From Pelagovum pacificum (GTDB taxonomy: Bacteria; Pseudomonadota; Alphaproteobacteria; Rhodobacterales; Rhodobacteraceae), in the NCBI RefSeq assembly GCF_016134045.1, contig NZ_CP065915.1:2732501-2796500 (forward strand): DNA of 64,000 bases, written 5' to 3'. The position numbers and the translations under genes are program-made. This document shows positions 1 to 18,483 of this stretch, piece by piece (position 1 is the stretch's first letter; every line of letters starts with the position of its first letter). The notes below the pieces were generated by a model. That model was given only the letters and a program-made list of their open reading frames with translations. It was not told the origin of the DNA and made no database searches.

Positions 1-910
1 AGCCCGTGATGGCGCCGTTCTGGGCATAGATACTTTCCTGCAGCGTCACGAACAGCGGATTTCCCGAGAAGGAGGTCAACGCCATGACCTGCGACAGAAA
101 TGTTTCCGAAAGCCCGGTCGGCGCGAAGGAATCGAAGGCCTCATCCATCGCCCACATGACATTCTCGAAGCCCGGCGCCATGCCGAAATCCAACCCAAGC
201 AACTGAAAACGCCGTACAGATAGCCGGTCGCCGTCGGGCAGCTGCGGTTCATGCGTGGCAATCAAGTCTGCAATCCGCCCTGCCCGCTCGACGGCGTCAG
301 GATAGCGGCGGCTGAACCGCTCGTTCTTGGCCAGGACACGCGGATAGGTTCGGCGATAGACATCGTCCGCCGTGGCCTCGATCCCGGCAAGTCCTCCGGT
401 GACGAAGCACTCCGTCAGCGCGTCCGGCGCGACAGACAGGTAATGCAGGGTCAGGAATCCACCGTAACTCTGTCCAAGCGTCGACCATCGCCGACCACCG
501 TAGATGTCTTTCCGGATCTGCTCACAGTCGCGTACGATCGAGTCGGTCGAGAAGCTGGCGAGGTAGTCCGCTCCCTCAGGGCCTGACATGGCGCCCATTC
601 GAGCACCCGTCACAGGACTGGAGCGCCCGGTGCCCCGCTGATCGAGAAGCAGCACGCGATAGTGTTTCATCGCCTCGTATAACCAGGGCGGGTCGCCAAT
701 ACCGGGCCGCGGAGCCTTGCCCCCTGGCCCCCCCTGCAGAAACAGCAGCAGCGGCAGATCTTCGGAGACCCGCTCCGGATCGCAGGCTTCGCGCAAGAAT
801 ACCTGAATCGTTTCGCCCTCGGGGTCCGACCAGTCGCGCGGCAGATCAATCTCGACTTCGGTCAGCGCGACGCCCGGGCCACGGCGGGTGGGACCACGAC
901 GGATGCTCAT
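1..910 (-). CDS. Prolyl aminopeptidase (S33 alpha/beta hydrolase), partial
   Basis: This frame is open from an ATG at 908-910 to the window edge, so the C-terminal part, with the expected catalytic Asp and His, is missing. The start is backed by a GGAGAGGAAA ribosome site. About 303 residues are visible. Seen: an oxyanion-hole stretch LQGGPGG (about 59-65), DQRGTGRS (about 90-97) and the nucleophile elbow GQSYGG with Ser at about 148. These match the larger, Aeromonas-type prolyl aminopeptidases, which remove N-terminal proline and, in characterised members, also hydroxyproline. There is no signal peptide, so it should be cytoplasmic. It is the last gene of the ABC transporter/GH127 operon, 31 bp after the ATPase gene, which suggests it processes the peptide part of an imported glycoconjugate (inference). 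Another S33 hydrolase specificity is possible. Confidence 0.8.
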   Translation of the reverse strand, partial: MSIRRGPTRRGPGVALTEVEIDLPRDWSDPEGETIQVFLREACDPERVSEDLPLLLFLQGGPGGKAPRPGIGDPPWLYEAMKHYRVLLLDQRGTGRSSPVTGARMGAMSGPEGADYLASFSTDSIVRDCEQIRKDIYGGRRWSTLGQSYGGFLTLHYLSVAPDALTECFVTGGLAGIEATADDVYRRTYPRVLAKNERFSRRYPDAVERAGRIADLIATHEPQLPDGDRLSVRRFQLLGLDFGMAPGFENVMWAMDEAFDSFAPTGLSETFLSQVMALTSFSGNPLFVTLQESIYAQNGAITG

Positions 911-941
911 GCTGCTTTTCCTCTCCAGATTGAGCCGGCCC

Positions 942-2036
942 TCATCCCAGCGCTCGAGTGCTCTTGGCGTCGAAAAGCATGGCGCGGTTCATATCCAGAT
1001 GAAGTGTCGCCTCGCTACCGCTGGCAGGAAACTGGTCGGCTCCGAGCCGCGCACAGAGCAGTGTCTCGCCCAAGCTACCATACGCGAGGGTCTCGATGCC
1101 GAGCGGCTCGACCTCGTCGAGCACGACCGAGAGCGGCACTGAGTGATCGCCGTTCGGAGAAAGCGAGATGGCTTCGGGCCGAATGCCCAGCACCACCTCG
1201 GCCGTCGGCGCAGCGGCAAGCCCCGCCTTAACCGCACCAGAAAGGGGCAGCGTCTGCCCCGTCTCCAGTTCAATTCCGACCCGGTCGCCTGAGCCACTGA
1301 GCCGCCCCGGCAACAGGTTCATCGGTGGCGAACCGATGAAGCCCGCGACAAACGTCGTTTGCGGGCGCTCGTAGAGATCGAGAGGCCGTCCCACCTGTTC
1401 GATATGCCCCCCATTCATCACGACGACACGGTCAGCCATGGTCATCGCCTCGGTCTGATCGTGAGTCACATATACTGTCGTCGTGGGCAGGATCCGCTGG
1501 AGGCGTTTGATTTCCGAGCGCATCTGGACGCGCAGCTTGGCATCGAGGTTCGACAGCGGCTCATCGAAAAGGAACACCTTGGGCTCGCGCACGATGGCAC
1601 GGCCCATGGCCACCCGCTGTCGCTGTCCCCCCGACAGCTGGCTGGGGCGGCGGTCTAGCAAGTTGGTGATGCGCAGGGTTTCAGCTGCTTGAGAGACTTT
1701 CTCAGAGACCTCGCCCTTCGGGGTCCCACGCTGCTGCAAACAGAATGCAAGATTTTCTCCCACGGACATATGCGGGTAAAGCGCGTAGTTCTGGAACACC
1801 ATGGCGATGTCGCGGCGGCCCGGAGCGACCCGATTGACCACCTTGTCGTCAATCCGGATGCGGCCGCCGGAGATATGCTCAAGCCCCGCCACCATCCGCA
1901 GCGTCGTGGACTTGCCACAGCCCGATGGCCCAACGAAAACAACGAACTCCTTGTCCTCGATCTCCAGGTTGATGCCATGCACGACCCGAGTCGAGCCGTA
2001 CATCTTGATCAGGTTCTCCAACTGAAGTGTCGCCAT
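942..2036 (-). CDS. ugpC: Sugar ABC transporter ATP-binding protein (UgpC/MsmK/MalK type)
   Basis: This is the ATPase that powers a CUT1-family carbohydrate importer from the cytoplasmic face. Its 364 residues are normal for the family. Walker A is GPSGCGKST near residue 37, the signature is [15 protein letters not shown] near 134, and Walker B with D-loop is [18 protein letters not shown]-terminal TOBE/OB-like regulatory domain of about 120 residues follows, as in MalK and UgpC. The gene starts 4 bp after the GH127 stop and is followed by the peptidase gene, so it is co-transcribed with both permeases and the binding protein. The sugar specificity is set by the binding protein and cannot be read from this subunit. 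The symbol reflects the family name only. Confidence 0.93.
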
Positions 2037-2040
2037 GGCT

Positions 2041-3981
2041 TCAGCGCTCCATCATCCAGACCAGCATGCCGCCGGCCTCGCGGTTGGCCCACAAGTGGTA
2101 GGGCACCGCCGTGAAAGTCGCAGGCACCTCACGTGGGGGCGTGCGGGAATAGAGCTGGCCGTCCCAGCCTCCGCTGTCGATTGACCGGGCCGGTCCATGT
2201 AGCACCGTGGCGCCGCCCAGAAGATCAGACCGGAAGTCGGCTTCGATTGCGTCTTCGGAGGAAAGCACGAGCCGCTGAGGGGCGATGCCGTTGTCGACCT
2301 CTTCCACGCAGTAGACGACGGGACCTCGCTTCAGCGCGACCCGGCCGGCATTCTCCGTCGCATCGGGATGGGCGTAGAGACGTTCGACCGGCATCGGAAG
2401 TTGCAGTTTAACGGTGTCGCCCGGCGACCAGGTGCGGGCGATGCGCGCGTAGCCGTTCGTCGTCACAGGGCCGAGCGCGACCTCTTCCCCGTTGACCGTC
2501 ACGCTCGGGGTGCGGCACCAGCCGGGAATGCGCAGACAAAGGCCAAACTCGACAGGCTCTTCGGGATCGACTTGAAGCGTGATCTCCGCGTCCCACGGAT
2601 AGTTGGTCGTCTGGCGCAACTGCACGTCGCGCGCGCCGACAGTAACCGTTGCCGCATTCTCCGAATACAGATGCACCGCGATTTCGGTCTCGGTCGTGCT
2701 GTAGTGGTAGGAGCCGATCGAGGCGATGAAGCGCGCGATGTTCGTGGGGCAGCACGGGCAATAGTGCCATTTCCAGCGGCGGTGCTGGCCGTGGCTCTCC
2801 AACGGGTTCTCGTAGAAGTAATGTTCGCCGTCGCGGGCGATACCCGACAGCGCGCCATTGTAGGCAACCAACTCGAGGATGTCGGTATAGCGCGCATCCA
2901 GCCGCGTCTGGGCCATGCGATAGGTCCAGAAACCCAGCGCGACAGAGGCACAGGTCTCTGCATAGGCCGTCTCGTTCGGGAGATCGAATTCCCGGGTGAA
3001 GCCCTCGTTGTCCTTCGAAGAACCGATGCCACCTGTCACATACAGCAACTTGGACGTCAGGTGATCGAAGAGCTTTTCGAGTGCGTCGCGGAGGCTGTCG
3101 TCGGCAGTCTCGTGCGCAAGGTCGGTCATCGCGGCAAAGAGATAGGTGGCACGAACGGCGTGGCCTTCGACCTCTTCCTGTTCTCGTACCGGCTTGTGGG
3201 CCTGGCTGTAGGCGTAAGTCTCAAAGATATAGTCGTCTGGTTCCTCGCCCCGCGCCCGCGCCTCTGCGTCGTAATATGAGGGTGTTTGCCCGCGCTCATC
3301 GACGAAGTAGGAGGCCTGCTTGAGGTACTTCTCTTCCCCCGTCAGCCGATAGAGCTTGATCAGGGCGATCTCGATCTCTTCGTGGGCGTCATAGCCGCGC
3401 AGCTTGCCTTCCTCGGTGCCGAAGGTGTCGATGATATGCTCGACGCAGCGGATCATCACCTCCAGGAAACGGCGCTTGCCAGTGGCCTCGAAGTAGGCGA
3501 TCGCGCCTTCCAGCAAGTGCCCCATCGAGTACATCTCGTGCAGGTCGCGCAGGTTCGTCCAACGGTTCTCGGGCTCGCGCCGGATGAACCACGAATTCAG
3601 ATAGCCGTCGGGCAGTTGCCCCTCTTCGAGACGAGCGACGATACCGTCGATCTTTTCTTCGATGTCCGGGTCGCGGCGGTACTTCAGCATGTAGGACGCC
3701 GCTTCGATCCACTTGCCGAAATCGCTGTCGAAGAAGTGCTGCATCGACAGGCCGGACGGCTGGATCGGCCGGGCCAGCGGACCGGGCGGCGACTTGAAGT
3801 CCAGCACTTCGAGGAATTTCTCTTCGTCCAGCCGCTTGTACTGCGTGGGCACGGTCACGTCGCGTACCGTGTCGTGCCAGCTCTTCCAGAAGCCACTCTC
3901 AAAGCTGACCTTGGCGTGGTCGACCGGCACGTGACGGGAGTCGGCCCGCTGGGGCCTGACATGATTATTCATCTGGTTCAC
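2041..3981 (-). CDS. GH127 beta-L-arabinofuranosidase (DUF1680)
   Basis: A 646-residue glycoside hydrolase of family GH127, whose prototype HypBA1 cleaves beta-L-arabinofuranosyl bonds in hydroxyproline-linked arabino-oligosaccharides. The catalytic set of HypBA1 (Glu322, Glu338, Cys340, Cys415, nucleophile Cys417, Cys418) maps onto Glu326, Glu342, Cys344, Cys408, Cys410 and Cys411 here: [12 protein letters not shown] and HYCPCCPTN carry them with the same spacing inside each cluster. A catalytic (alpha/alpha)6 barrel (about 20-430) is followed by beta-rich domains. No signal peptide is seen, so it acts on imported oligosaccharides. The gene abuts the upstream permease gene (1 bp from its stop) and lies 4 bp before the ATPase gene. 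Other GH127 activities are known, such as on an RG-II branched acid sugar, so the substrate is inferred. Confidence 0.92.
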
Positions 3982-4866
3982 CTATTTGACGGCGCCGGCG
4001 ACAAGGCCGCGCACATAGTAGCGTTGAAGGGCGAGGAAGAGCAGGATGCAGGGCACCATGGTCAGCGTGATGCCGGCCTGCAGTGCGCCCCAATCGATCA
4101 GACCTCGGATGCCCGTTGTGACGTTTACCAGCATGACTGGCAGTGAGAATTTCTCTTCCTGGCTAAGGAAGATCAGCGCTGCGAGAAACTCGTTCCAAGA
4201 ATTGAGGAACGCGAACATCGCAACGGTTGCCACGCCCGGCAGCGCCAGCGGCAGTGTGATCCGCCGCATCAGCGACCACTGGCTGGCACCGTCGATTCTG
4301 GCGCTTTCGATCAGGGCCTTCGGCACCGCGTCGAAGGCGTTGCGCATCATGAAGATCGAGAAGGGCAACTGAAAAGTTACGTAGACCAGCACCAGACCGT
4401 TGAGCGTGTTGGCCAGCCTCAGCTTCACGAGGATCAGGAAGAGCGGCGTCAGGATCGACTGGAACGGGATCATCATCGTCGCCAGGATCGCGATGAAGAG
4501 GACATTCTGCCCCGGGAAGCGGAACTTGGAGAAGCCATAGCCCGCCGGCACCGAAATCAGCAGCGTCACGACCACCGTCCCGACCGCAAGGTAGAGCGAG
4601 TTGCCAACGAAGCTGAGCACCCCGTCCCCCACCGTATCGAGGTTCCGGTAGTTCTGGAGGGAGAAGTTCTCCGGGATCAGCCGGGCGGGGTTGGACAGCG
4701 TCTCGGCCGGAAGCTTGAAGGAGTTCGAGATCGACCAGACGATCGGCATCAGGAAGATGGCCGCGATGAAGAAGCCGGCTATGATGTAGATAGCCCGCCA
4801 CAGGTAGTCCGTCGCCGGCACCGGGTTCAACTCGCCTGCATCGTCGTTGAGGGTTGCGTCAGTCAT
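3982..4866 (-). CDS. Sugar ABC transporter permease (MalG type)
   Basis: Inner-membrane subunit of the CUT1 sugar importer, 294 residues with about six hydrophobic segments; the first is near residues 25-47 after a polar cytoplasmic N-terminus. The EAA loop that docks on the ATPase is IESARIDGASQWSLMRRITLPL followed by ALPG, in the MalG position about 90 residues from the C-terminus. The start codon lies 4 bp after the stop of the MalF-type partner, and its own stop is directly followed by the GH127 reading frame, so the genes are tightly coupled. It forms the transport channel together with the product of 4871-5794. Confidence 0.93.
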   Translation of the reverse strand: MTDATLNDDAGELNPVPATDYLWRAIYIIAGFFIAAIFLMPIVWSISNSFKLPAETLSNPARLIPENFSLQNYRNLDTVGDGVLSFVGNSLYLAVGTVVVTLLISVPAGYGFSKFRFPGQNVLFIAILATMMIPFQSILTPLFLILVKLRLANTLNGLVLVYVTFQLPFSIFMMRNAFDAVPKALIESARIDGASQWSLMRRITLPLALPGVATVAMFAFLNSWNEFLAALIFLSQEEKFSLPVMLVNVTTGIRGLIDWGALQAGITLTMVPCILLFLALQRYYVRGLVAGAVK

Positions 4867-4870
4867 GGCG

Positions 4871-5794
4871 TCATTCCTGCGTGTTGCGGAAGTTGAGGAT
4901 CGCCATCTGCGTCGCGCTGATCGCCACCAGGATTATCAGCAACACCATCGACATCGCAGACCCGTAGCCGAGCCTGTAGGACGAGAAGCTCTCCAGATAG
5001 ATCGAGAATACCGCCGTCACCGTCGAGTTGCGCGGCCCACCCTGAGTGATCACGAAGAACTGGTCGAAGGCCAGCATCGACCAGGTCACATTCAACACCA
5101 GGGCAAGGATGATTGCGTTGCGCATCAGCGGCAGTGTCACCCGGAAAAACCGGGAGATCGGCCCTGCCCCGTCGATCTTCGCCGCCTCGATCACGTCGTC
5201 GGAAACGGATTGCAGGCCGGTCAGCAGTATCACCATGGTGAACCCCGCCTGCTTCCAGACGACCATCAGGATCACGACCAGCAGCGCCGGCCAGAAGCTC
5301 TCGGTCGGCCGAGGTGCGGAGTCCACGATGCCCGCGCGAAGCAGCAACTCGGCGAAGACGCCGTTGTCGGGGTTGAGTAGCCACGTCCAGAGCGTTGCCG
5401 CTGCGCCGAAGCCAATGACGACGGGCATGAAGTAGATCGTCCGGAATAGCCCGGCGATGCGGAGTGGCTTGTCGACCAGAAGGGCCAGCGGGAAGGCGAC
5501 GAGAAACAGCGCCGAAGTCACCAGTACAGTATAGAGCACGGTGAAGCGGATCGAGCGCCAGAAACGGCCGTCACCGAACAGCTCGACAAAGTTCTCGCCC
5601 CCGATGAAGCGGGGCGTTCCAAGCAGCGGCCAGCTGTGAAGGCTCATCCAGACGGTCATGCCAAGCGGCAGCAGGAACAGCAGGCTAATGAAGAGCAGGC
5701 TGGGCGTAATGAGCGTCAGACCGAGCCACTGGTATGGCTCGCGGCTGATCGGCTCATCCTCGGCGGAGGGCCGGTGCTCTGGCAGGTCCGTCAT
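4871..5794 (-). CDS. Sugar ABC transporter permease (MalF type)
   Basis: The second inner-membrane channel subunit of the CUT1 importer, 307 residues. The N-terminus is a polar tail of about 25 residues, then a strong hydrophobic segment (about 27-50) and at least five more. The EAA loop VIEAAKIDGAGPISRFFRVT continues into LPLMRN, the ATPase contact. It is the MalF-like partner of the following MalG-like gene, 4 bp away. A gap of 107 bp separates it from the binding-protein gene upstream, which allows stronger expression of the binding protein than of the channel, a common arrangement in such operons. Confidence 0.92.
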   Translation of the reverse strand: MTDLPEHRPSAEDEPISREPYQWLGLTLITPSLLFISLLFLLPLGMTVWMSLHSWPLLGTPRFIGGENFVELFGDGRFWRSIRFTVLYTVLVTSALFLVAFPLALLVDKPLRIAGLFRTIYFMPVVIGFGAAATLWTWLLNPDNGVFAELLLRAGIVDSAPRPTESFWPALLVVILMVVWKQAGFTMVILLTGLQSVSDDVIEAAKIDGAGPISRFFRVTLPLMRNAIILALVLNVTWSMLAFDQFFVITQGGPRNSTVTAVFSIYLESFSSYRLGYGSAMSMVLLIILVAISATQMAILNFRNTQE

Positions 5795-5901
5795 GTCTCG
5801 TTTCCTCGGGTACCGTTCGCACTCGGCACTCTGACAGTGGGCAGTCGCTGGAGAGACGCAGGCAACCGGGGCCGCCTGCGTCGGTCGTCATCAGCGTCGG
5901 G

Positions 5902-7140
5902 TCAGGGGTTGGTCCGCTCGAGGATCTGCTCGAACCGGCCTTCAGCCATCTCGATCGCGCCGTCGACGTCACCATCAAAGATCGCGGTCTCGAGCAGTTC
6001 GAGCCACGGCCCGGTCAGCGAGATGAAGAGCGCATCGTTGGCGTAGGTGTAGGGCGTGAAGCCCGATTGCAGCATGTCGTAGGCAATCAGGTTGCGCTCA
6101 TCGAAATCGGCGTAGGCCTCTTCTGCGAGGTCGGTCCGCGATGGCATTCCGGCCAGTTCGGTGATCGTCACCTGCTGTTCCGGCTGCATGTAATATTCGA
6201 TGAAATCTTCGACCAGCGCGCGCTTCTCGTCCGAGATTCCCTCGATCATGACGACATCGTCACCACCTGCGAAGGTCGCGGTGCCCCCGGTCGGTCCGGG
6301 GATCGGCGCAATACCGAAATTCACGTCCGGATAGTTCGCCGTCATCAGGTTCACGATGTAAGAGCCCGACATCAGGATGCCGACCTGGCCCGAGGCGAAC
6401 GCCTCGACAGCGGAGTTGCCGTTTCCGGACCGGGTCGTGGGGTGAATGGCACCCGCCTCCCACATGTCGTTGTAGAGCTGAAGCGTGGCGCGCATGGACG
6501 GGGTATCGACTGTCTGGCTGCGGCCGTCCTCGCTCAGGATGTCGTCGCCACCCGCCCAGATGTGAGGCAGGAAGTCGTAAGCCATCCAGGAGCCGGAATT
6601 GCCGACGAACATGAAGCCGTAGGTTTCGTCGTCCAGTTCGCTGATCGAGACCGCCGCCTCTGCGAGGCTTTCCAGCGATTCCAAGGCCGACGGATCGACG
6701 CCGGCAGCGTCCAGCAGGTCGGTGTTGTACACGATGACCGATGCGTCCGGGGTCAGCGGTACGCCGTATTTCTTGCCTTCATAGGTCGCCAGCCGCACGT
6801 GGGAGGGGGACAGCGCGTCGGAATACGGGAGGCTGTCGATGAAGTCGGTCATATCCTCCAGCATGCCCGCGGCGGCGAAGGTGGGCATGTAGATCAGGTC
6901 CATTGCAACGGCGGACGGCGCCGCGCCGCCGGCAAGGGCTGCACCAAGCTTCGGGACCATTTGCTCAGCCACGACCGGAACGATCGAGATCTGATCTTCA
7001 TGGGACGCGTTGTAGCTCTCGGCCATCGCCTCGAGGATCGGCGCGGTCGAGGTCCTCACCCAGATGTCGACTTCTTCTGCGAATGCGGGCGTCGCCGCAG
7101 TAACGCCGGCAAGAACTGTTAAAGCTTTGTATTTGAACAT
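5902..7140 (-). CDS. Extracellular sugar-binding protein of ABC transporter
   Basis: The 412-residue periplasmic receptor of the importer and first gene of the operon. The N-terminus has a Sec signal peptide, with a hydrophobic core VLAGVTAATPA and a likely cut after AFA, before EEVDIW. The mature part looks like family 1 solute-binding proteins (MalE/UgpB-like): IWVRTSTAPILEAMAESYN at the start, GVPLTPDASVIVYNTDLLDAAG in the first lobe, and ASGQVGILMSGSY in the hinge/second lobe. A GGAGAG ribosome site stands before the ATG. The downstream GH127 enzyme suggests a beta-L-arabinose-containing oligosaccharide or glycopeptide as ligand; this is inference. No regulator gene is adjacent. Confidence 0.92.
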   Translation of the reverse strand: MFKYKALTVLAGVTAATPAFAEEVDIWVRTSTAPILEAMAESYNASHEDQISIVPVVAEQMVPKLGAALAGGAAPSAVAMDLIYMPTFAAAGMLEDMTDFIDSLPYSDALSPSHVRLATYEGKKYGVPLTPDASVIVYNTDLLDAAGVDPSALESLESLAEAAVSISELDDETYGFMFVGNSGSWMAYDFLPHIWAGGDDILSEDGRSQTVDTPSMRATLQLYNDMWEAGAIHPTTRSGNGNSAVEAFASGQVGILMSGSYIVNLMTANYPDVNFGIAPIPGPTGGTATFAGGDDVVMIEGISDEKRALVEDFIEYYMQPEQQVTITELAGMPSRTDLAEEAYADFDERNLIAYDMLQSGFTPYTYANDALFISLTGPWLELLETAIFDGDVDGAIEMAEGRFEQILERTNP

Positions 7141-7898
7141 TTTGTTTCTCTCCTGTTGGCCTCCCCTCTACTCGCGCGGGAGTCCTCGCACCGAGAACGC
7201 TAGTTTTGCGAATATTGGATGTCTACTGTCTGTCCACAAATAAAATACAAAATAGATACGGTTGCCTAAAGTTTGCCCAAGACGCTTGCTGCGCTTGCAA
7301 GATGAGTTGTAAAGCCGCTCAGATGACTTGGCCGCATGAGCGCATCCGCGGCGAAATGCCGGAAGTGACCTACAAGGGCCGGTTCGCCGACGCGGCCTCC
7401 TTCACCCCGTTCGGCATCCCTGCGATCTGCTAAGGCCGGGCGGTCCAACTTCGAAGGCGGTGCGCGCCACGATCCGCGCTCGGGCGAGACGGTCAGCACC
7501 AAGGACCCGCACGAGGTGGCGAAGGCGTTCATTCAGCTTGCGGCGGACGCGTGCAGCATGGATCGCATGTTCGCTTGTCGCGATCCCGCTGATGCTGGTT
7601 TCTTTAGGATTGATCGTTTTCTAACGCGGCCCGCGCACACGTGGGGGATGAAACCCTCATACCTCACTGTCGGACCGCTCGTCGGCTCCAATCCCAACAC
7701 ATTTGGGGACGAGCTGCCTTCGTGGGTCTTCTGGGGGTGATAAATGAGGCGTTTTCGCACGCGCCCGGATTCGTCGACCCGCTCGATGCACTTAGGCCCT
7801 TTCACCGAGACCGTCGCACCCCTTGGCAAACCTTACGAAAGGCGTCGTCGTGCGTGAAACCGAAGCACACGCCTGAACCAAAAATAATCTGGTAAAGA
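7141..7898. other. 758-bp region without an intact gene
   Basis: The 120 bp next to the binding-protein start are AT-rich and should hold the operon promoter on the minus strand; I cannot assign -35 and -10 boxes with confidence. The rest shows patches of GC-rich, codon-like sequence on the plus strand in shifting frames (see the pseudogene entry) and ends at the 3' end of tRNA-Phe. No complete gene, insertion sequence or attachment-site duplicate was recognised. Confidence 0.5.
7324..7895 (+). pseudogene. Possible remnant(s) of decayed coding sequence, unidentified
   Basis: Several short plus-strand stretches have coding-like codon use but no common frame: about 7324-7433 ends in a stop after FTPFGIPAIC; 7435-7560 in another frame reads SNFEGGARHDPRSGETVSTK onward; 7648-7740 starts MKPSYLTVGPLVGSNPNTFG and stops; 7738-7895 continues in the first frame. 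I do not recognise the parent protein or proteins. The pieces may come from different genes. Their place against the 3' end of a tRNA gene is typical of leftover island DNA, but this is inference from position only. Confidence 0.25.
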
Positions 7899-7973
7899 TG
7901 GTGCCCGGGGGCGGAATCGAACCACCGACACGAGGATTTTCAATCCACTGCTCTACCCCTGAGCTACCCGGGC
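7899..7973 (-). tRNA. tRNA-Phe (anticodon GAA)
   Basis: A 75-nt cloverleaf read on the minus strand with encoded CCA. The acceptor stem pairs GCCCGGG with CCCGGGC and the discriminator is A; D-arm GCTC/GAGC; anticodon loop TTGAAAA giving GAA; T-arm GGTGG/CCGCC around TTCGATT. The anticodon stem GTGGA/TCCTC contains one T-T mismatch (positions 28 and 42), while all other stems pair fully. The sequence otherwise looks like the usual tRNA-Phe of this bacterial group, so I take the gene as functional. Confidence 0.95.
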
Positions 7974-9831: not shown

Positions 9832-10689
9832 TCACTCGTAGTAGGCGGGAGCGCTCATGGTCGAGAAGGTCGGAACACTGACCTGCTCGGGCCGCATCTC
9901 GGGACGCAGGCTGACCATCACGGCAGCGTTGGAGGTGCAGTAATCCTGCTCCCGCGTCCAGGCCGTCATCTCGTCGATGACCCAGCCGTGGGTCATGGGG
10001 CCCCAGTCGGCGGCAACGCCACGGCGACCGCCGGCGATCGCGTTATCGCGCTCCACGGTGTAGGCCATGATGCGCACTGCGCAGGACAGGTTGTCGACCG
10101 GGTCTTTCAGGGCCTCGCCGGTGCTGGCGTAGCAATCGTAGTGACGTGCGGTCGTCGGGTAGATCTGGAGGAGGCCGAACCACTGGCCACCACCGCCGAC
10201 GACGTGGGGCACGTAGCGGCTTTCGTAGTAGGCGAGCGCGGACATCATGCCGACCCAGAAGGCACGACGCTCCTCGTCGGACTTGTTGGCGTAGCCGGGG
10301 CACCAGGCTTCGATGTCGCTCGGGATGATGTCCTCGAGCCCGTCGCCGTGGGCCTCGATCGCGGCCATCGCGGTACGGGTCCAGAGTTCGCCTTCCTCCG
10401 TCTCGTCCCACTTCGCGGCGGGCTGGTAGGTGGAGCGGACAGGCGGCAGGACCGGCGGCTCACCGAAGGTGACGGATACGCCGTTATATACGATCTGGCG
10501 CGGCTCTTCCTCGGCGCGCTCGGTCGCGGGACGCGACAGCGGGCGGACACCGGCGGGATAGGACGCGCCGATGACCTCGCTCAGCGGGTCGGCGGCCAGT
10601 GTCTCTGTGACGGACGAATCGATGTCGGCCATGGCCTGGAGCGGAAGGCTCGCGGCGATGATCCCGGCTAGCAGGGAACGCATTTCCAT
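9832..10689 (-). CDS. Lytic transglycosylase SLT-fold protein, secreted
   Basis: A 285-residue exported protein: signal peptide of about 22 residues ending AMA, then a linker (about 23-100) and a transglycosylase SLT-like domain. Seen: SALAYYESRY with the presumed catalytic Glu followed by Ser, as in SLT family 1, then GGGGQWFGLLQIYPTTARHY, which fits the G-L-x-Q-I motif, and LSCAVRIMAY. It should cleave peptidoglycan glycan strands in the periplasm. It is a tandem paralogue of the next gene upstream (10764-11354), sharing the W-C-P-G-Y, GGGG-W-G-L, P-T-T-A-R and N-L-S-C-A-V-R-I blocks. Confidence 0.83.
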   Translation of the reverse strand: MEMRSLLAGIIAASLPLQAMADIDSSVTETLAADPLSEVIGASYPAGVRPLSRPATERAEEEPRQIVYNGVSVTFGEPPVLPPVRSTYQPAAKWDETEEGELWTRTAMAAIEAHGDGLEDIIPSDIEAWCPGYANKSDEERRAFWVGMMSALAYYESRYVPHVVGGGGQWFGLLQIYPTTARHYDCYASTGEALKDPVDNLSCAVRIMAYTVERDNAIAGGRRGVAADWGPMTHGWVIDEMTAWTREQDYCTSNAAVMVSLRPEMRPEQVSVPTFSTMSAPAYYE

Positions 10690-10763: not shown

Positions 10764-11354
10764 TCATTGAATTTCAGAACCTTGCGACGGTGCGCAATAG
10801 GCTTGCTGGCTCACCCAGTCGCGCATCTCGGCACGCTTGCTGGACGAGTGGAACGGGCCCCAGTCCCGCATGCCGCGGCTGACGGTGCCGTAGCGGGCGA
10901 CCTGGCGGGTCGCGATGCGCACCGCGCAGGACAGGTTGGCCGCGCCATCGCGCAACGCCGACCCGCTGGTCGCCTGGCAGCCGTAGCCGCGCGCCGTGGT
11001 TGGGTCGATCTGCACGAGGCCGTACCAGCGGCCGCCACCACCGACAGCGTCGGGGTTCCACGTGCTCTCATGCTCGGCGAGGGCCGACAGCAGGCCTGTC
11101 CAGAACGCCGCCCGCTCATCGCGGGAGGCCGTGGCGTATCCCGGGCACCAGCCCTCGATGTCGCCGGGCATCATGTCCGCCAGCGACGTTTCGTGACGAT
11201 CCATCGCCGCGAAGGATGCGGCGGTCCACGTGGCCGCTTCGGGCCGGTGGTCCCAACGCATGGCGGGAACGTAGGGTTCGGGTTCGGGAGTTGGTTGCAC
11301 GGTGGCACAGGCGGTCAGCGCGGAAAGCGCGAGAGCAAGCAGCGGCAAACGCAT
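10764..11354 (-). CDS. Lytic transglycosylase SLT-fold lipoprotein (paralogue)
   Basis: A 196-residue lipoprotein: MRLPLLALALSALTAC gives a signal peptide with lipobox LTAC and Cys at 16. I chose the ATG at 11354 because the alternative 4 codons upstream would add acidic residues before the signal peptide; the frame remains open much further upstream, but over a plus-strand gene. The SLT-like domain has SALAEHESTWNPDAVGGGG with the presumed catalytic Glu, then RWYGLVQIDPTTARGYG, and a C-terminal WVSQQAYC. It would act on peptidoglycan while anchored in a membrane. The adjacent gene 9832-10689 encodes a soluble version, so the pair arose by tandem duplication. Confidence 0.82.
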   Translation of the reverse strand: MRLPLLALALSALTACATVQPTPEPEPYVPAMRWDHRPEAATWTAASFAAMDRHETSLADMMPGDIEGWCPGYATASRDERAAFWTGLLSALAEHESTWNPDAVGGGGRWYGLVQIDPTTARGYGCQATSGSALRDGAANLSCAVRIATRQVARYGTVSRGMRDWGPFHSSSKRAEMRDWVSQQAYCAPSQGSEIQ

Positions 11355-11552
11355 GAATTCGTCCATAGGCAGCACCGGGGCCCCTCGCCCGGCACAGAGC
11401 GTTTGCCCTCTCGGGCTCCATGAATCGAGTCGAACGAGTCCAGATCGGCGAATCTTTGCCGCCGTCAAGATGGGAACGCCAAGATACGGACCGATTGATG
11501 CCAGATTTTGTGTCCATGCATCACCTGAACGCAACGAAGTCGTGACACGCTC

Positions 11553-12866
11553 ATGCGCCAGGACAAAACGACCCCGAATCCCGGCCATATCCTCAAGACG
11601 GGGACGGCCCTCCTGCGTTCGGCGGGCCGTCATTCCGCGCGGATCGCCGGGGATGCGCTCGACAAGTCGGGGCTCGTCGATCGGCTGAAGGCGACACCGA
11701 TCTGGACGATGAACAGCAACCGCGTGAGACGGCGGCGGCTGGAGCGGTTGGAACTCACCTTCATCGACCTGCCCGCGACACGCCGCGAAGTGGCCGAGAT
11801 CGAGACGGAGGCGGCCGCCCTCGCCCGATCCGCCGCGTGGAGCGACCTTGCCGACATGCTGCAGGACTTCGAGGATATCCGCAGCGACGCACCCGGCCTG
11901 CTGCGCCTGTACGACAGCTGCGCGACCGCTGCGCGAATGGCGCTGGCCGACGATATCGCACCGCCCGACGACCTGACGCTCGCGCCGGTCGCCGGTATCG
12001 CGGACCCGACCCTGGACGAGCTCGAGGGCGCGCATGTCCGCGACCGATCAAACCACATCCTCGCGGCGCTGGCCGCCCGCGCCCATATCGACGCCGCCTG
12101 GTATCACCGGTCCGGCTCCGCAGACGCCGAGATCCCCGACGAGCGGTGGGAGGCGATGCGCCTGCACTACGACCGTGCGGCGCAGATTTTGGCCGAATTC
12201 GACCCACACACCCACAATTCGCCGCTCCTGGCCGAGGCTTTCTATTTCCTGGCGCTCGATGCCGAAGACCCGGCGTCGGCGCTGCATCGGGCGTTCGAGA
12301 CCTGGACCGACCTCGATCCGGCGAACGTCACACCGTACCTGACGCACGGCTTCCACCTGCTGCCCCGCTGGGGCGGCAGTTACGAACATCTGCACGGCGA
12401 AGCGGCCTGCAGCGCGCGAAACACGAAGGAACTGCTTGGCGGGGGCGCCTACACGGCGTTCCACGTGATCGCCCTGCTGCGCGACGACGAGGCGATTGCC
12501 GGGCTCGACGTCGACCGTTTCGTCGACGGGCTGCACGACCTGCTCGACTACGACCTGAACGATCCGGACACGGCCAACAACTTCGCCGGGATGCTCTACG
12601 CGGTGTCAAAGCCGCGGCTGCCGGGGCCGGAGACGCCAGCCGACTCGCCCGCGCCCCGGCGCCGCGAAGAGATGCGCGAGGCATTGCGAGAGTTCATCGA
12701 CCTCCGACTCGGGGGCCTCCGCGCCGATGCCTGGGGGGAGCCCGGCGATGCCGAAGCCGCGCTGGCCGATCTGTTCGCAGAACAGCTCGACGCCGGGAAC
12801 CGGCTGATCCTCGACAAGCACGGCCTCCGGTTCGAGCCGTTGAAGCCGCCGCCCGAACAGGCCTGA
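11553..12866 (+). CDS. Hypothetical protein, alpha-helical, unknown function
   Basis: A 437-residue protein I do not recognise. It is soluble, rich in Ala, Leu, Asp and Arg and appears all-helical, with stretches such as AEAFYFLALDAEDPASALHRAF that look like tetratricopeptide-type helix pairs but without a clear repeat. No signal peptide, membrane segment or catalytic motif stands out. Codon use matches the neighbouring core genes, so it is likely a real lineage gene. It reads toward gatB, 75 bp away, and could share its transcript. Confidence 0.7.
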   Translation: MRQDKTTPNPGHILKTGTALLRSAGRHSARIAGDALDKSGLVDRLKATPIWTMNSNRVRRRRLERLELTFIDLPATRREVAEIETEAAALARSAAWSDLADMLQDFEDIRSDAPGLLRLYDSCATAARMALADDIAPPDDLTLAPVAGIADPTLDELEGAHVRDRSNHILAALAARAHIDAAWYHRSGSADAEIPDERWEAMRLHYDRAAQILAEFDPHTHNSPLLAEAFYFLALDAEDPASALHRAFETWTDLDPANVTPYLTHGFHLLPRWGGSYEHLHGEAACSARNTKELLGGGAYTAFHVIALLRDDEAIAGLDVDRFVDGLHDLLDYDLNDPDTANNFAGMLYAVSKPRLPGPETPADSPAPRRREEMREALREFIDLRLGGLRADAWGEPGDAEAALADLFAEQLDAGNRLILDKHGLRFEPLKPPPEQA

Positions 12867-14719: not shown

Positions 14720-15526
14720 ATGACACATTACGAATACAAGGTTGTGGCCGCGCCGAAGCGTGGCACTCGTGCCAAGGGGCTGAGGACAAGCGAGGCCCGC
14801 AACGCGAACGCTCTTGAACTGCTGATGAACGAATACGGGGCCGACGGCTGGGAATTCCAGCGCTCCGACACGCTGCCTTTCGATGAGCGCACCGGTCTCA
14901 CGTCGCGCGAGACGCAGTTTCAGACCTTCCTCGTTTTCCGCCGCCTCGCGGTAGCCGCCGAGGTCAGGGGCACCGGCACCGACGGCTACACGATGACCGC
15001 ACCCGTGCAGGTCGCAGAGTCGTCCGGCACGATCACCAGCCTGCGCGACTATTGGAACGCCTCGGCGGAGATCGAGGAGATGACCAGCGAACCGGCCATC
15101 AGTACCGCGCTGGCGACGCGCGCCGCCATGCGTCGCCCGGCCCCTGCCCGGCTGGTCGAGTCTGAGACATCACCGGCCACAGAGCCCGCGGCACCGCAAC
15201 CGACGCTGATCGCCTCCGAAGCGGAGCCCACGCTCGCTCTCGCGCCCGATCCGACGCCGGAGCCGCTGCCGGTCACCGCGCCGGTGCAGGCCCGGCCGCT
15301 GCTGGACGATCCCGCGACCGCGCTGGCCGAGGGCCGGACCTTCGACCGCCCGCCCTCGCGCATGTTGTTCCGGCTGGGCAAGCCGCAGGAGATGGTCGTC
15401 CGGCGCCCTGACCCAACCGAAGCGCCCGTGGAGTCGACGCCTGTGGTGCCCGCGCGCCCGACCGGCGAGGCGCTCGCGCGTGCCTTCCGCGAAGGGGCGG
15501 CCATGGGACGTCACGCTGCCGAGTAA
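14720..15526 (+). CDS. DUF4177 domain protein with Pro/Ala-rich tail
   Basis: A 268-residue protein. Residues 1-80 (HYEYKVVAAPKRG, then LLMNEYGADGWEFQRSDTLP) resemble the small DUF4177 domain, whose function is unknown. The rest, about 120-268, is low-complexity, rich in Pro, Ala, Glu and Arg, and probably disordered. I set the start at the ATG at 14720, preceded by a G-rich ribosome site, rather than the in-frame ATG at 14630, whose added residues are not protein-like. It is monocistronic and lies downstream of gatB. Confidence 0.72.
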   Translation: MTHYEYKVVAAPKRGTRAKGLRTSEARNANALELLMNEYGADGWEFQRSDTLPFDERTGLTSRETQFQTFLVFRRLAVAAEVRGTGTDGYTMTAPVQVAESSGTITSLRDYWNASAEIEEMTSEPAISTALATRAAMRRPAPARLVESETSPATEPAAPQPTLIASEAEPTLALAPDPTPEPLPVTAPVQARPLLDDPATALAEGRTFDRPPSRMLFRLGKPQEMVVRRPDPTEAPVESTPVVPARPTGEALARAFREGAAMGRHAAE

Positions 15527-15606
15527 GGGCGCGAAACCATTGCAAACGGCGGGGTGGCGGCTAAGTATGTCCTACTCGAAACCTGACGTCTGCAAGTCCC
15601 GCCCGC

Positions 15607-16020
15607 ATGATCCGCTACGCCCTGAAATGCTCGGATGACCACCGCTTCGAAAGCTGGTTCCAGTCTGCCAGCGCCTTCGACCGGTTGAAGGACGCGGGGC
15701 ATGTCTCCTGCGCCGTCTGCGGCTCGGCCGAGGTGCAGAAGGACCTGATGGCCCCCTCCGTCAGCGAAGGCGGTGAGAAGCCGCTCTCGCGCCCCGCTTC
15801 TCTTGCTGAACAGGCAATGGCGGACCTGCGCCGCAAGGTCGAGGAAAGCTCGAGCTACGTCGGCAAGGACTTCGTGACAGAAGCCCGCGCCATGCACGAC
15901 GGCGAGAAACCGCACCGGTCTATCCACGGTGAAGCGAACCTCGCCGAGGCGAAGAAGCTGCTGGAGGATGGGGTCCCCGTCATGCCGCTTCCCTTCCGGC
16001 CGAAGCGCCAGTCGAACTGA
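15607..16020 (+). CDS. DUF1178 family protein
   Basis: A 137-residue small protein of DUF1178, common in alphaproteobacteria and of unknown function. The N-terminus MIRYALKCSDDHRFESWFQS and a Cys pair in VSCAVCGSAEVQKDLMAPSV are typical and suggest a zinc-binding ribbon (with Cys8 as a possible third ligand). The stop codon overlaps the start of the following SDR gene by one base, so the two are translationally coupled. Confidence 0.88.
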   Translation: MIRYALKCSDDHRFESWFQSASAFDRLKDAGHVSCAVCGSAEVQKDLMAPSVSEGGEKPLSRPASLAEQAMADLRRKVEESSSYVGKDFVTEARAMHDGEKPHRSIHGEANLAEAKKLLEDGVPVMPLPFRPKRQSN

Positions 16021-16658
16021 TGCGCGTGCTGGTCACAGGCGCGAGCCGCGGGATCGGAGCCGCCCTCCTCTTGGCCTACCGCGAGCGAGGGGACACCGCG
16101 CTTGGCACGTCGCGCAGCGGCGACGGCCTGATCCGGCTCGATGTGACCGACCCGGCGGCCTTCGCTGGCTTGCCCGGCGAGGTCGGCGACAGTCTCGACC
16201 TGCTGGTCTGCAACGCCGGGATCTTCCCGGACCGTCACGACGAGATCGACACCGGTTACGACGCGGCCAAGTGGGCCGACGTCTTCGCCACCAACGTCAC
16301 CGGTGCGTTCCTGACCGTTCAGACGCTGCTGCCGCAGCTGCGCGCCGCGAAGGGCAAGGTCGCCATCATCTCGAGCCAGATGGGCGCCTCCACCAAGGCC
16401 GGCGGTGACGCGCTGATCTACCGGGCATCCAAGGCGGCGTCGGCGAACCTCGCCCTGAACCTTTCCAAGTCCTTGAAACCCGACGGCATCGCCGTTGGCG
16501 CCTATCACCCCGGCTGGGTCAGCACCGACATGACCAGCCACAAGGGCGCGCTGCAACCGGAGGAGGCCGCGCAAGGCCTCGTCGCACGGTTCGACGCGCT
16601 CGATCTGGAAACGACCGGCTGTTTCATGACATGGGATGGCCAGCCACACCCGTTCTGA
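16020..16658 (+). CDS. SDR family oxidoreductase
   Basis: A 212-residue short-chain dehydrogenase/reductase. Nucleotide-binding motif VTGASRGIGAALLL near the start, NAG in LLVCNAGIFP, catalytic Ser in IISSQMG and YRASK as the Y-x3-K pair. It is shorter than classical members, as in the CsgA/sniffer-like group. The substrate is unknown. It overlaps the DUF1178 gene by one base and is followed after 13 bp by the PepF-type peptidase gene, so all three probably form one operon. Confidence 0.9.
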   Translation: MRVLVTGASRGIGAALLLAYRERGDTALGTSRSGDGLIRLDVTDPAAFAGLPGEVGDSLDLLVCNAGIFPDRHDEIDTGYDAAKWADVFATNVTGAFLTVQTLLPQLRAAKGKVAIISSQMGASTKAGGDALIYRASKAASANLALNLSKSLKPDGIAVGAYHPGWVSTDMTSHKGALQPEEAAQGLVARFDALDLETTGCFMTWDGQPHPF

Positions 16659-16671
16659 AGGAGCGACGACA

Positions 16672-18483
16672 ATGAAAAGCCCCCTGTTCGACGTTGACAG
16701 CTCCGGTGCCCGCAACCTCGGCGATCTGCCCGAGTGGGACCTGACAGACCTCTACGAGAGCCCCGACTCCGCCGACTTCAAGCGCGACATGGACTGGCTG
16801 GAGGCCGCCTGCGCCGATTTCGCCCGCGACTACGAAGGCAAGCTCGAGACGCTCGATGCCGCCGACATGCTCGAGGCCGTCCGCCGGTACGAGAAGATCG
16901 ACGTCGTCGGCGGGCGCATCATGTCCTACGCGGGCCTGCGGTACTACCAGGTCACCACCGACTCCGACCGGGGCAAGTTCCTGACGGACGCGCAGGACCG
17001 GATGACCTCCTACACCACGCCGCTGGTCTTCTGGGGGCTGGAGTTCAACCGCCTCTCCGACGACCACGTCGAGGGCCTGCTGAACGAGAGCGACGAACTC
17101 GCCCGCTACAAGCCGATCTTCGACCGGATGCGCGCGATGCGGCCCTACCAGCTGTCCGACGAGCTCGAGAAATTCCTGCACGACCAGTCCACCGTCGGTG
17201 GTACCGCGTGGAACAAGTTGTTCGATGAGACGATCGCCGGGCTGACCTTCACGGTCGACGGTGAAGAAAACGGCATCGAGGGGACGCTCAACTACCTGAC
17301 CGAGCAGGACCGCGCCAAGCGCGAGGCGGCGTTCCATGCGCTTACCGACGTCTTCGGCCAGAACATTCGTACCTTCGCGCGCGTCCACAACACGCTCGCC
17401 AAGGAGAAGGAGATCGAGGACCGCTGGCGCGGGATGCCGACACCGCAGACCGGCCGGCACCTCGCCAACCATGTCGAGCCGGAAGTCGTGCAGGCCCTGC
17501 GCGACGCCGTGGTCGACGCCTACCCCCGCCTGTCGCACCGCTACTACGGGCTGAAGGCGAAGTGGCTTGGTCTCGACAGGATGCAGGTCTGGGATCGCAA
17601 CGCGCCGCTGCCGATGGAAAGCGACCGCATCGTCGACTGGGACGAGGCGAAGGGCATCGTGATGGACGCCTACGGATCGTTCGATCCGCGCATGGCCGAC
17701 ATCGCGCAGCCGTTCTTCGAAAAGGGCTGGATCGACGCGCCGGTGAAGCCCGGCAAGTCGCCCGGCGCCTTCGCCCACCCGACGGTGACGGACGCGCACC
17801 CCTACGTGCTGCTGAACTACCTCGGCAAGCCGCGGGACGTGATGACGCTGGCGCACGAGCTCGGCCACGGCGTGCACCAGGTCCTCGCCGCCGGACAGGG
17901 GGAGCTGCTGTCCTCCACACCGCTGACCCTGGCCGAGACGGCGTCGGTGTTCGGCGAGATGCTGACCTTCCGCAAGTTGCTCGCCGGTGCCCCGGACGAG
18001 GCGGAGAAGAAGGTCCTGCTGGCCGGCAAGGTCGAGGACATGATCAACACGGTGGTCCGCCAGATCGCCTTCTACGATTTCGAGTGCAAGTTGCATGACG
18101 CCCGTCGCGGCGGAGAGCTGACGCCCGACGACATCAACGCGCTCTGGATGTCGGTGCAGGCCGAAAGCCTCGGCCCCGTCTTCGACTTCGCACCGGGTTA
18201 TGAGACCTTCTGGGCCTACATCCCGCACTTCGTCCACTCGCCCTTCTACGTCTACGCCTATGCCTTCGGCGACGGCCTCGTGAACGCGCTCTACGCCGTC
18301 TACGAAGAGAGCGGCGAGAGCTTCAACGACAAGTACTTCGCGATGCTCAAGGCGGGCGGGTCGATGCACCACAAGGAGCTTCTGGCGCCGTTCGGCCTGG
18401 ACGCGTCTGACCCGGCCTTCTGGAACAAGGGCCTTTCGATGATCGAAGGGTTCATCGACGAGCTCGAGGCGATGGAATCGTGA
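16672..18483 (+). CDS. pepF: M3 family oligoendopeptidase (PepF-type)
   Basis: A 603-residue cytoplasmic zinc metallopeptidase that degrades oligopeptides. The zinc-binding motif HELGH is at residues 395-399 (within TLAHELGHGVHQVL) and the third ligand lies in the TLAETASVFGE block about 25 residues later. The C-terminal HxxHxPFYVYAYAFGD-like block (HFVHSPFYVYAYAFGDGL) is typical of PepF/clade 3 M3 enzymes. The start at 16672 follows GGAG by 8 bp; an upstream in-frame ATG at 16636 overlaps the SDR gene. The GTG start of the GNAT gene overlaps the stop. Confidence 0.93.
   Translation: MKSPLFDVDSSGARNLGDLPEWDLTDLYESPDSADFKRDMDWLEAACADFARDYEGKLETLDAADMLEAVRRYEKIDVVGGRIMSYAGLRYYQVTTDSDRGKFLTDAQDRMTSYTTPLVFWGLEFNRLSDDHVEGLLNESDELARYKPIFDRMRAMRPYQLSDELEKFLHDQSTVGGTAWNKLFDETIAGLTFTVDGEENGIEGTLNYLTEQDRAKREAAFHALTDVFGQNIRTFARVHNTLAKEKEIEDRWRGMPTPQTGRHLANHVEPEVVQALRDAVVDAYPRLSHRYYGLKAKWLGLDRMQVWDRNAPLPMESDRIVDWDEAKGIVMDAYGSFDPRMADIAQPFFEKGWIDAPVKPGKSPGAFAHPTVTDAHPYVLLNYLGKPRDVMTLAHELGHGVHQVLAAGQGELLSSTPLTLAETASVFGEMLTFRKLLAGAPDEAEKKVLLAGKVEDMINTVVRQIAFYDFECKLHDARRGGELTPDDINALWMSVQAESLGPVFDFAPGYETFWAYIPHFVHSPFYVYAYAFGDGLVNALYAVYEESGESFNDKYFAMLKAGGSMHHKELLAPFGLDASDPAFWNKGLSMIEGFIDELEAMES

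Follow-up and report, generated by a model that had tools for sequence, protein, structure and literature searches.

In Bifidobacterium longum, the enzymes HypBA1, HypBA2 and HypAA and an importer for beta-arabinobiose (beta-Ara2; BLLJ_0208-0213) bring an intracellular enzyme of glycoside hydrolase family 127 (GH127) together with a sugar ATP-binding cassette (ABC) importer. Xanthomonas euvesicatoria encodes xehypBA1, xehypBA2 and xehypAA; its GH127 acts mainly on arabinose linked to hydroxyproline (Ara-Hyp), as characterised GH127 enzymes do, and a prolyl-oligopeptidase gene adjoins xehypAA (PMC6085000). Sinorhizobium meliloti has the hydroxyproline (Hyp) genes hypE, hypO, hypD and hypH, which answer to the GntR-family regulator HypR and are induced by 4-Hyp (PMC5343134), and in Latescibacteria (WS3) GH127 has been read in silico as stripping arabinose from the Hyp of extensins (PMC4454575). 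Here we describe an operon at one end of a 64,000-nucleotide stretch of Pelagovum pacificum DNA (NZ_CP065915.1, positions 2,732,501 to 2,796,500; hereafter the window), in which a GH127 gene shares a strand with the genes of an ABC importer and of a predicted prolyl aminopeptidase (PAP).

The sequence itself shows which genes are present and in what order, that they recur together in relatives, that the genome has two catabolic clusters, and that a motif is repeated. We propose, with a probability of roughly three in four, that the operon imports beta-L-arabinofuranosides of Hyp-rich glycoproteins and splits them in the cytosol, that both halves are catabolised, and that the system is under GntR/FCD control. 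The first-pass annotation of the window had already read the operon as one for Hyp-arabinosides. This is supported by the linkage of PAP to GH127, by the Hyp genes of the nearest relative, by the genome's own Hyp and arabinose clusters and by a putative shared operator; the form in which the substrate enters the cell is still conjecture.

A GH127 operon with a predicted prolyl aminopeptidase

As had been described, the six genes form a one-strand operon with short gaps, all on the minus strand and separated from first to last by 107, 4, 0, 4 and 31 bp. The first gene (5902..7140) encodes a 412-aa CUT1 solute-binding protein (SBP; SBP_bac_8/SBP_bac_1 in Pfam) with a signal peptide recognised by eye. 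Together with permease 1 (4871..5794, 307 aa; BPD_transp_1, top NCBIfam match UgpA, below cut-off), permease 2 (3982..4866, 294 aa; BPD_transp_1) and a MalK/UgpC-type ATPase with OB/TOBE domains (942..2036, 364 aa; ABC_tran, OB_MalK and TOBE_2; NF008653 UgpC at 498.9 bits, cut-off 432), it makes a complete CUT1 importer set by Pfam and NCBIfam. The GH127 gene (2041..3981, 646 aa, GTG start) lies between permease 2 and the ATPase. Last comes an S33 PAP (2..910; Abhydrolase_1), of which the window holds the first 303 residues, the gene running past its edge; rRNA genes downstream probably leave little room beyond the end of PAP.

The GH127 protein matches the catalytic, middle and C-terminal GH127 domains of Pfam (PF07944, PF20736 and PF20737) at 340.3, 87.7 and 79.6 bits, all above cut-off. 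GH127 enzymes are described as using a Cys nucleophile, a Glu acid/base and a zinc bound by three Cys and one Glu (PMC8106489). Residues E326, E342, C344, C408, C410 and C411 are invariant in a 9-sequence alignment and align with those of HypBA1, which bears out the full Glu/Cys catalytic set noted earlier; the lack of a signal peptide, judged by eye, also holds, in keeping with a cytosolic enzyme. The closest solved relative is 4qjy, named a beta-L-arabinofuranosidase (E 6e-197), followed by 6ex6 (9e-117) and HypBA1 itself (3wkw, 2e-110), and the enzyme is predicted to act on beta-L-arabinofuranosides. At E<=1e-100, GH127 occurs in 12 of 394 genomes of the family, one of them P. pacificum; outside it, in the remaining 11, identity to the window's GH127 is 46-53%. 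P. pacificum has two more GH127 genes, 52% and 48% identical to the window's and outside its clade in the tree. These lie at L006 (C1:2634054 region) and L007 (C1:3363607 region), one of them in an SBP-permease-permease run with a LacI gene and one right behind a LacI gene; at the thresholds used, the stretches fetched around them contain no proline-peptidase or Hyp-type neighbours.

The PAP piece in the window has 71% identity to its counterpart of 432 aa in the nearest relative, Marinibacterium profundimaris (locus L043). Among solved structures, Arabidopsis AT3g61540 (8jgn), which we take to be PAP2, comes closest, at E 2.8e-52 with the window piece and 2.9e-94 with L043 PAP (residues 17-417). 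Both PAP1 and PAP2 are described as cleaving N-terminal proline (PMC12516527). The first-pass annotation had called the peptidase Aeromonas-type; its scores fall far short of the NCBIfam equivalog models for prolyl aminopeptidase (TIGR01249, 41.9 vs 259.75 bits; NF045948, 32.8 vs 500). Of the triad, the GQSYGG serine is inside the window, and the candidate Asp and His lie past its edge and are conserved in the aligned relatives. PAP is present in the genome as a single copy, and apart from it there is one match, weak and partial (E 2.8e-7). Predicted structures were of low quality, with a mean pLDDT of 60.9 for the SBP and 65.3 for L043 PAP.

Association of GH127 with peptidase and hydroxyproline genes

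To ask how often these genes occur together, we used the best 80 of 542 confirmed GH127 relatives from a scan of a genome collection. Sixty-four loci with at least 64% identity to the window GH127 make up clade A (L043-L102, L104, L106, L107 and L114); three are intermediates (L103, L105 and L108), 13 belong to other clades, and the more distant partial match L042 was excluded. These 13 other-clade loci, together with 14 loci that the family searches gave in 13 genomes, serve as the 27 controls, of which two are shorter than 12 kb. A neighbourhood is the fetched DNA, up to 10 kb per side (7 of the 64 clade A loci are shorter than 20 kb), with relatives' genes called by a simple codon model and neighbours recognised by their homology to reference proteins, of which each family had one or two. 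Clade A is nearly all Hyphomicrobiales (Rhizobium, Devosia, Martelella and others); L043 is the sole rhodobacterial member by name, and L096 is an unplaced alphaproteobacterial metagenome-assembled genome.

Most clade A loci (58/64) have permease 1 (at least 60% identity) and permease 2, in the window's order of SBP, permease, permease, GH127 and ATPase. Within 10 kb of GH127, at least one peptidase gene is found in 42/64 loci: PAP in 29, an M24 prolidase-like gene in 24 and a long M24 aminopeptidase P-like gene in nine. Genes of Hyp type are also present, namely the proline-racemase/Hyp-epimerase family in 4/64, D-amino-acid dehydrogenase in 2/64 and the dihydrodipicolinate synthase (DHDPS) family, at 45% identity or more, in 14/64; an Opp SBP is nearby in 10/64. 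Counting any proline-type peptidase, Hyp-type gene or Opp, 43 of the 64 clade A loci are linked. Among the 27 controls the count is zero in every one of these categories within the fetched DNA, where control L035, with Opp-like permeases and ATPase at 32-42%, went uncounted under a rule that required an SBP at 50%. Among the three intermediates, two from Kaistia have D-amino-acid dehydrogenase and proline-racemase-family genes next to GH127. Thus the conservation of the peptidase with GH127 across relatives, on which the first-pass annotation had staked its reading, withstood the comparison. The gene set as annotated recurs in clade A, but its PAP is not a universal member.

In the 29 loci PAP stands in five arrangements. 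It lies directly behind the ATPase on the same strand in five (L043, L053, L071, L073 and L090), as in the window; on the opposite strand at 13.0-13.6 kb in 12 and at 14.9-16.7 kb in seven; far downstream in one; and upstream in four. All six clade A loci that lack CUT1 genes (L044, L045, L049, L088, L098 and L099) have an Opp transporter and a long M24 peptidase instead. In the GH127 tree, L043 and the window have the Cohaesibacter loci L044 and L045 as sisters with support of 99, so importer type varies inside one small group. That tree, built by a quick method from 98 rows, places all 46 linked rows, the window's included, in one 68-row clade with support of 100; 22 unlinked rows fall inside this clade and the remaining 30 outside it, and the linkage label needs 14 changes. 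A search for PAP across 50 genomes found a match in 20, made up of 15 clade A genomes with no PAP near GH127, the intermediate L105 and four positive checks. Among clade A genomes known to have PAP, then, 29 of 44 have it within 10 kb of GH127. By our estimate a single PAP would fall so near GH127 by chance in a 4-8 Mb genome well under 1% of the time; the genomes are not independent. We also saw broken or truncated frames, of SBP and GH127 in L082 and of PAP in L084 and L095.

This association bears on an explanation in which the operon serves some other beta-L-arabinofuranoside or an aceric acid glycan, for example from pectin, with the peptidase as a passenger. The sole NCBIfam match of GH127 is indeed an aceric acid hydrolase (NF049879), and 6ex6 (labelled ‘Six-hairpin glycosidase’), which we assume to be a Bacteroides aceric-acid enzyme, is the second-best solved relative. 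The NF049879 score of 401.9 bits is far under the cut-off of 950, so we rate that identity low, and 4qjy is much the closer structure. The peptidase and Hyp association is moreover specific to one clade and recurs there in varied arrangements. We consider this explanation as a whole very improbable.

Plasmid records show PAP and GH127 both together and apart. By eye, 43 of the 60 listed GH127 records (of 230) recur among the 60 listed PAP records (of 83), and in all 43 the two genes are no more than about 12.2 kb apart, with 41 at 5 kb or less; most are near-copies from the Rhizobium leguminosarum complex. We opened nine plasmid regions. A Rhizobium daejeonense plasmid has the window's arrangement, with PAP annotated as an alpha/beta fold hydrolase; R. 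johnstonii 3841 pRL10 carries the operon, DHDPS, GntR, PAP and Xaa-Pro peptidase genes consecutively; and Devosia neptuniae holds CUT1, GH127, LacI, aminopeptidase P, Opp and PAP in a single cluster. Three plasmids, of Shinella, Arthrobacter Rue61a and Sinorhizobium RAC02 (unannotated, found by tblastn), have Opp-PAP-aminopeptidase P runs with no GH127 in the fetched stretch; the Rue61a run has genes for DHDPS, ornithine cyclodeaminase and aldehyde dehydrogenase (ALDH) close by. In Arthrobacter ERGS1:01, the run around PAP holds genes for proline racemase, aminopeptidase P, DHDPS, ornithine cyclodeaminase, GntR and an FAD oxidoreductase. A further region, from Nonomuraea, is unannotated.

Hydroxyproline and arabinose gene clusters

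In L043, whose GH127 is 77% identical to the window's, the Hyp genes and the operon are contiguous. One strand carries, in order, genes for a GntR regulator, a DHDPS-family protein, 4-Hyp epimerase (NF052296, 540.4 bits, cut-off 450) and FAD-dependent D-amino-acid dehydrogenase, followed by SBP, the two permeases, GH127, ATPase and PAP. After PAP, at 14829-17540, comes a sulfatase-domain protein with RTX calcium-binding repeats.

P. pacificum has a Hyp cluster of its own at C1:579001-585144, with a 4-Hyp epimerase (NF010578, 594.5 bits, cut-off 376; 63% identical to that of Kaistia), a D-amino-acid dehydrogenase, two GntR genes, a DHDPS gene and an M24 peptidase gene. The dehydrogenase, one GntR and DHDPS are 55%, 63% and 80% identical to their L043 counterparts, and the M24 peptidase is 28% identical to the M24 reference. 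For hypE, hypO, hypD and hypH of S. meliloti, we presume the protein family of each. An L-arabinose cluster at C1:412761-421127 encodes L-arabinonate dehydratase (935.7 bits, cut-off 882), a Gfo/Idh-type dehydrogenase, a DHDPS protein, an ALDH and ArfA (890.8 bits, cut-off 625). Alpha-ketoglutaric semialdehyde dehydrogenases are named for both arabinose and hydroxyproline catabolism (PMC4495286), in support of the idea that the two routes converge.

A shared operator-like motif

A LacI-type gene (at least 38% identity) accompanies 54 of the 64 clade A loci; none was found at E 1e-15 in L043 or in the first 10 kb of the window. Comparison of intergenic DNA gave a 19-bp tandem motif, TGTNNACANACANTNGACA. 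With one mismatch at most, the searchable 4.09 Mb of the genome contain it twice: upstream of the Hyp-cluster DHDPS gene, and upstream of the window operon, where the putative operator TGTGGACAGACAGTAGACA (7220..7238, minus strand) lies 79 bp upstream of the SBP start codon. The reversed motif had no match in the same 4.09 Mb at the same tolerance. The motif is also present upstream of the SBP gene in L043 and was not found in L061, L070, L085 or L098.

As the motif was derived from its own sites, a hold-out is the fairer test. The Hyp-cluster 20-mer alone matches the window promoter at 4 mismatches of 20. Among 1340 other 300-bp stretches of the genome, half-overlapping and taken from the window and seven fetched stretches, not one does as well (three reach 5), and neither does any of 2000 single-base shuffles. 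The half-site TTGTCGACAA is found at 0-1 mismatches upstream of 10 of 16 same-family GntR genes, compared with 42 of 800 random stretches, though R. leguminosarum-like genomes supply 7 of those 10 sites as near-copies, and in L043 it stands at 2 mismatches. These sites point to probable control of the operon by the GntR/FCD regulator encoded in the Hyp cluster, acting at a putative operator that both have in common. A scan for consensus promoters and terminators upstream of the operon gave no match.

Genomic setting

The operon is flanked by rRNA genes and tRNA-Phe. Over the first 8 kb of the window the GC content is 60.6-62.7%, against 62.9-70.1% in the subsequent 2-kb steps, which is compatible with an acquired segment. 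The interval between the operon and tRNA-Phe (7240-7900) resembles, by eye, degraded coding sequence. Farther along, two adjacent lytic-transglycosylase-like open reading frames (ORFs) at 9832-10689 and about 10764-12035, on the minus strand, have WCPGYA and GLLQI/GLVQI stretches in common and look by eye like a tandem duplication. Past the rRNA genes on the other side (L004, 3651-10904), large helicase-like and methylase-like ORFs stand beside an ImmA/IrrE-type peptidase-like ORF, possibly a defence island, again as judged by eye.

A proposed route and its alternatives

In the route that we propose, the CUT1 transporter would take up Ara-Hyp, Ara2-Hyp and/or short arabinosylated Hyp peptides from plant or algal Hyp-rich glycoproteins. 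GH127 would free L-arabinose from Hyp in the cytosol, and PAP would then release N-terminal Pro or Hyp from the leftover peptide. L-arabinose would enter the oxidative L-arabonate pathway, and Hyp would pass through the epimerase, a D-Hyp dehydrogenase and a DHDPS-family deaminase, both halves meeting at alpha-ketoglutaric semialdehyde. The GntR/FCD regulator of the Hyp cluster would act on the operon through the shared operator. We infer the substrate, its import form, the direction of flow, the exact roles of the DHDPS, dehydrogenase and ALDH proteins and the binding of the regulator from gene content and context.

Hyp breakdown in these bacteria seems to draw on two import modules, one for glycosides (CUT1-GH127) and one for peptides (Opp-PAP-aminopeptidase P), and the window operon would be a glycoside module that acquired PAP and bears the Hyp-cluster motif. 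Since PAP requires a peptide with N-terminal Pro or Hyp, its place among these genes points to an import substrate that is at least partly a glycopeptide. A bolder version, in which root-nodule bacteria and their marine relatives import intact arabinosylated Hyp glycopeptides that GH127 deglycosylates and PAP and aminopeptidase P trim inside the cell, we hold only tentatively and with some doubt.

The ligand of the SBP is central to how the substrate enters, which under the proposed route would be while still linked to Hyp or to a Hyp peptide. The best solved relative of the SBP is 6lce (E 2e-44; runner-up 8e-27), the BLLJ_0208 protein of B. longum, described as binding beta-Ara2 exclusively and free of Hyp (PMC8106489). 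This match fits a Bifidobacterium-like scheme in which only free beta-Ara2, cut off outside, is imported and split by GH127, and PAP serves Hyp or Pro peptides that are imported separately, so that the two have a food source and perhaps a regulator in common, but not a molecule. The three plasmids with Opp-PAP-aminopeptidase P runs but no GH127 nearby also agree with it. Against such a scheme, all six clade A loci without CUT1 genes pair GH127 with an Opp transporter, and PAP lies directly behind the transporter ATPase in both the window and L043; on balance we find it unlikely. We had considered the 6LCE match as support for a Hyp-linked substrate and dropped it: two control GH127 operons without a peptidase match 6LCE as well as or better than the window SBP does (E 6e-53 and 3e-46), so that the likeness counts only for beta-arabinosides in general.

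Several observations weigh against the proposed route. These two control operons, and the Hyp-free ligand of 6LCE itself, are among them. HypBA1 ranks only third among the solved relatives of GH127, after 6ex6. PAP is not near GH127 in 35 of the 64 clade A loci; of those genomes, 15 carry a PAP at another place and the other 20 show no match at E<=1e-40. No linked gene of any kind is present in the fetched DNA of 21 of the 64, five of these loci being shorter than 20 kb. Clade A genomes are mostly rhizobia and not independent. On a Marinibacterium anthonyi plasmid, neither GH127 nor any Hyp-type gene lies within 8 kb of PAP, which speaks against a fixed link. The DHDPS and dehydrogenase proteins of L043 and of the P. 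pacificum clusters, and the ALDH proteins of the latter, are below all NCBIfam cut-offs shown, so their pathway steps are assigned by context, and the P. pacificum epimerase is of a different type from that of L043 (36% identity). The motif pattern was derived post hoc from the very sites that it describes, and the hold-out query was likewise picked after the sites were known. No GH121 is encoded among the six operon genes, the rest of the genome not having been searched for GH121 or secreted proteases.

If the route holds, rhizobia, Devosia and some marine Rhodobacterales would feed on the sugar as well as the imino acid of Hyp-rich glycoproteins from plants or algae, and a single intermediate would receive both. 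GH127 enzymes with a known substrate appear to be few in the literature covered here, and the linkage and common motif suggest Hyp-linked beta-L-arabinofuranosides for this group. They also suggest a role for a peptidase family that plasmid records mostly label just ‘alpha/beta (fold) hydrolase’. A question that follows is whether nodule bacteria consume arabinosylated plant peptides; should the glycopeptide version be true, nodule substrates could include Hyp-arabinosylated CLE-type signalling peptides besides extensin fragments.

Comparison with known systems

The pairing of GH127 with a proline-releasing peptidase and a dedicated ABC importer had been noted as unfamiliar in Rhodobacterales. 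Among the matches listed, which covered few subscription journals, we found no published account from Alphaproteobacteria that brings GH127 together with Hyp catabolism or a prolyl aminopeptidase. The pairing is wider than was assumed, extending mostly through Hyphomicrobiales. The described systems each differ from it. In the proposal for Latescibacteria, arabinose would be freed and imported as the monomer, and the word ‘prolyl’ does not appear in that account (PMC4454575). For the HypR regulon of S. meliloti, the passages drawn on here name no glycosidase or prolyl aminopeptidase (PMC5343134). X. euvesicatoria uses three glycosidases in series to take Ara4-Hyp to arabinose, the adjoining peptidase gene is described as a pseudogene, and the word ‘transporter’ does not appear in that account (PMC6085000). 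In B. longum, whose beta-Ara2-binding protein is the best solved match of the window SBP, a GH121 enzyme cuts beta-Ara2 off outside the cell and the sugar is imported free (PMC7263609, PMC8106489), whereas proline-type peptidases and Hyp-type genes are linked with the GH127 clade of the window.

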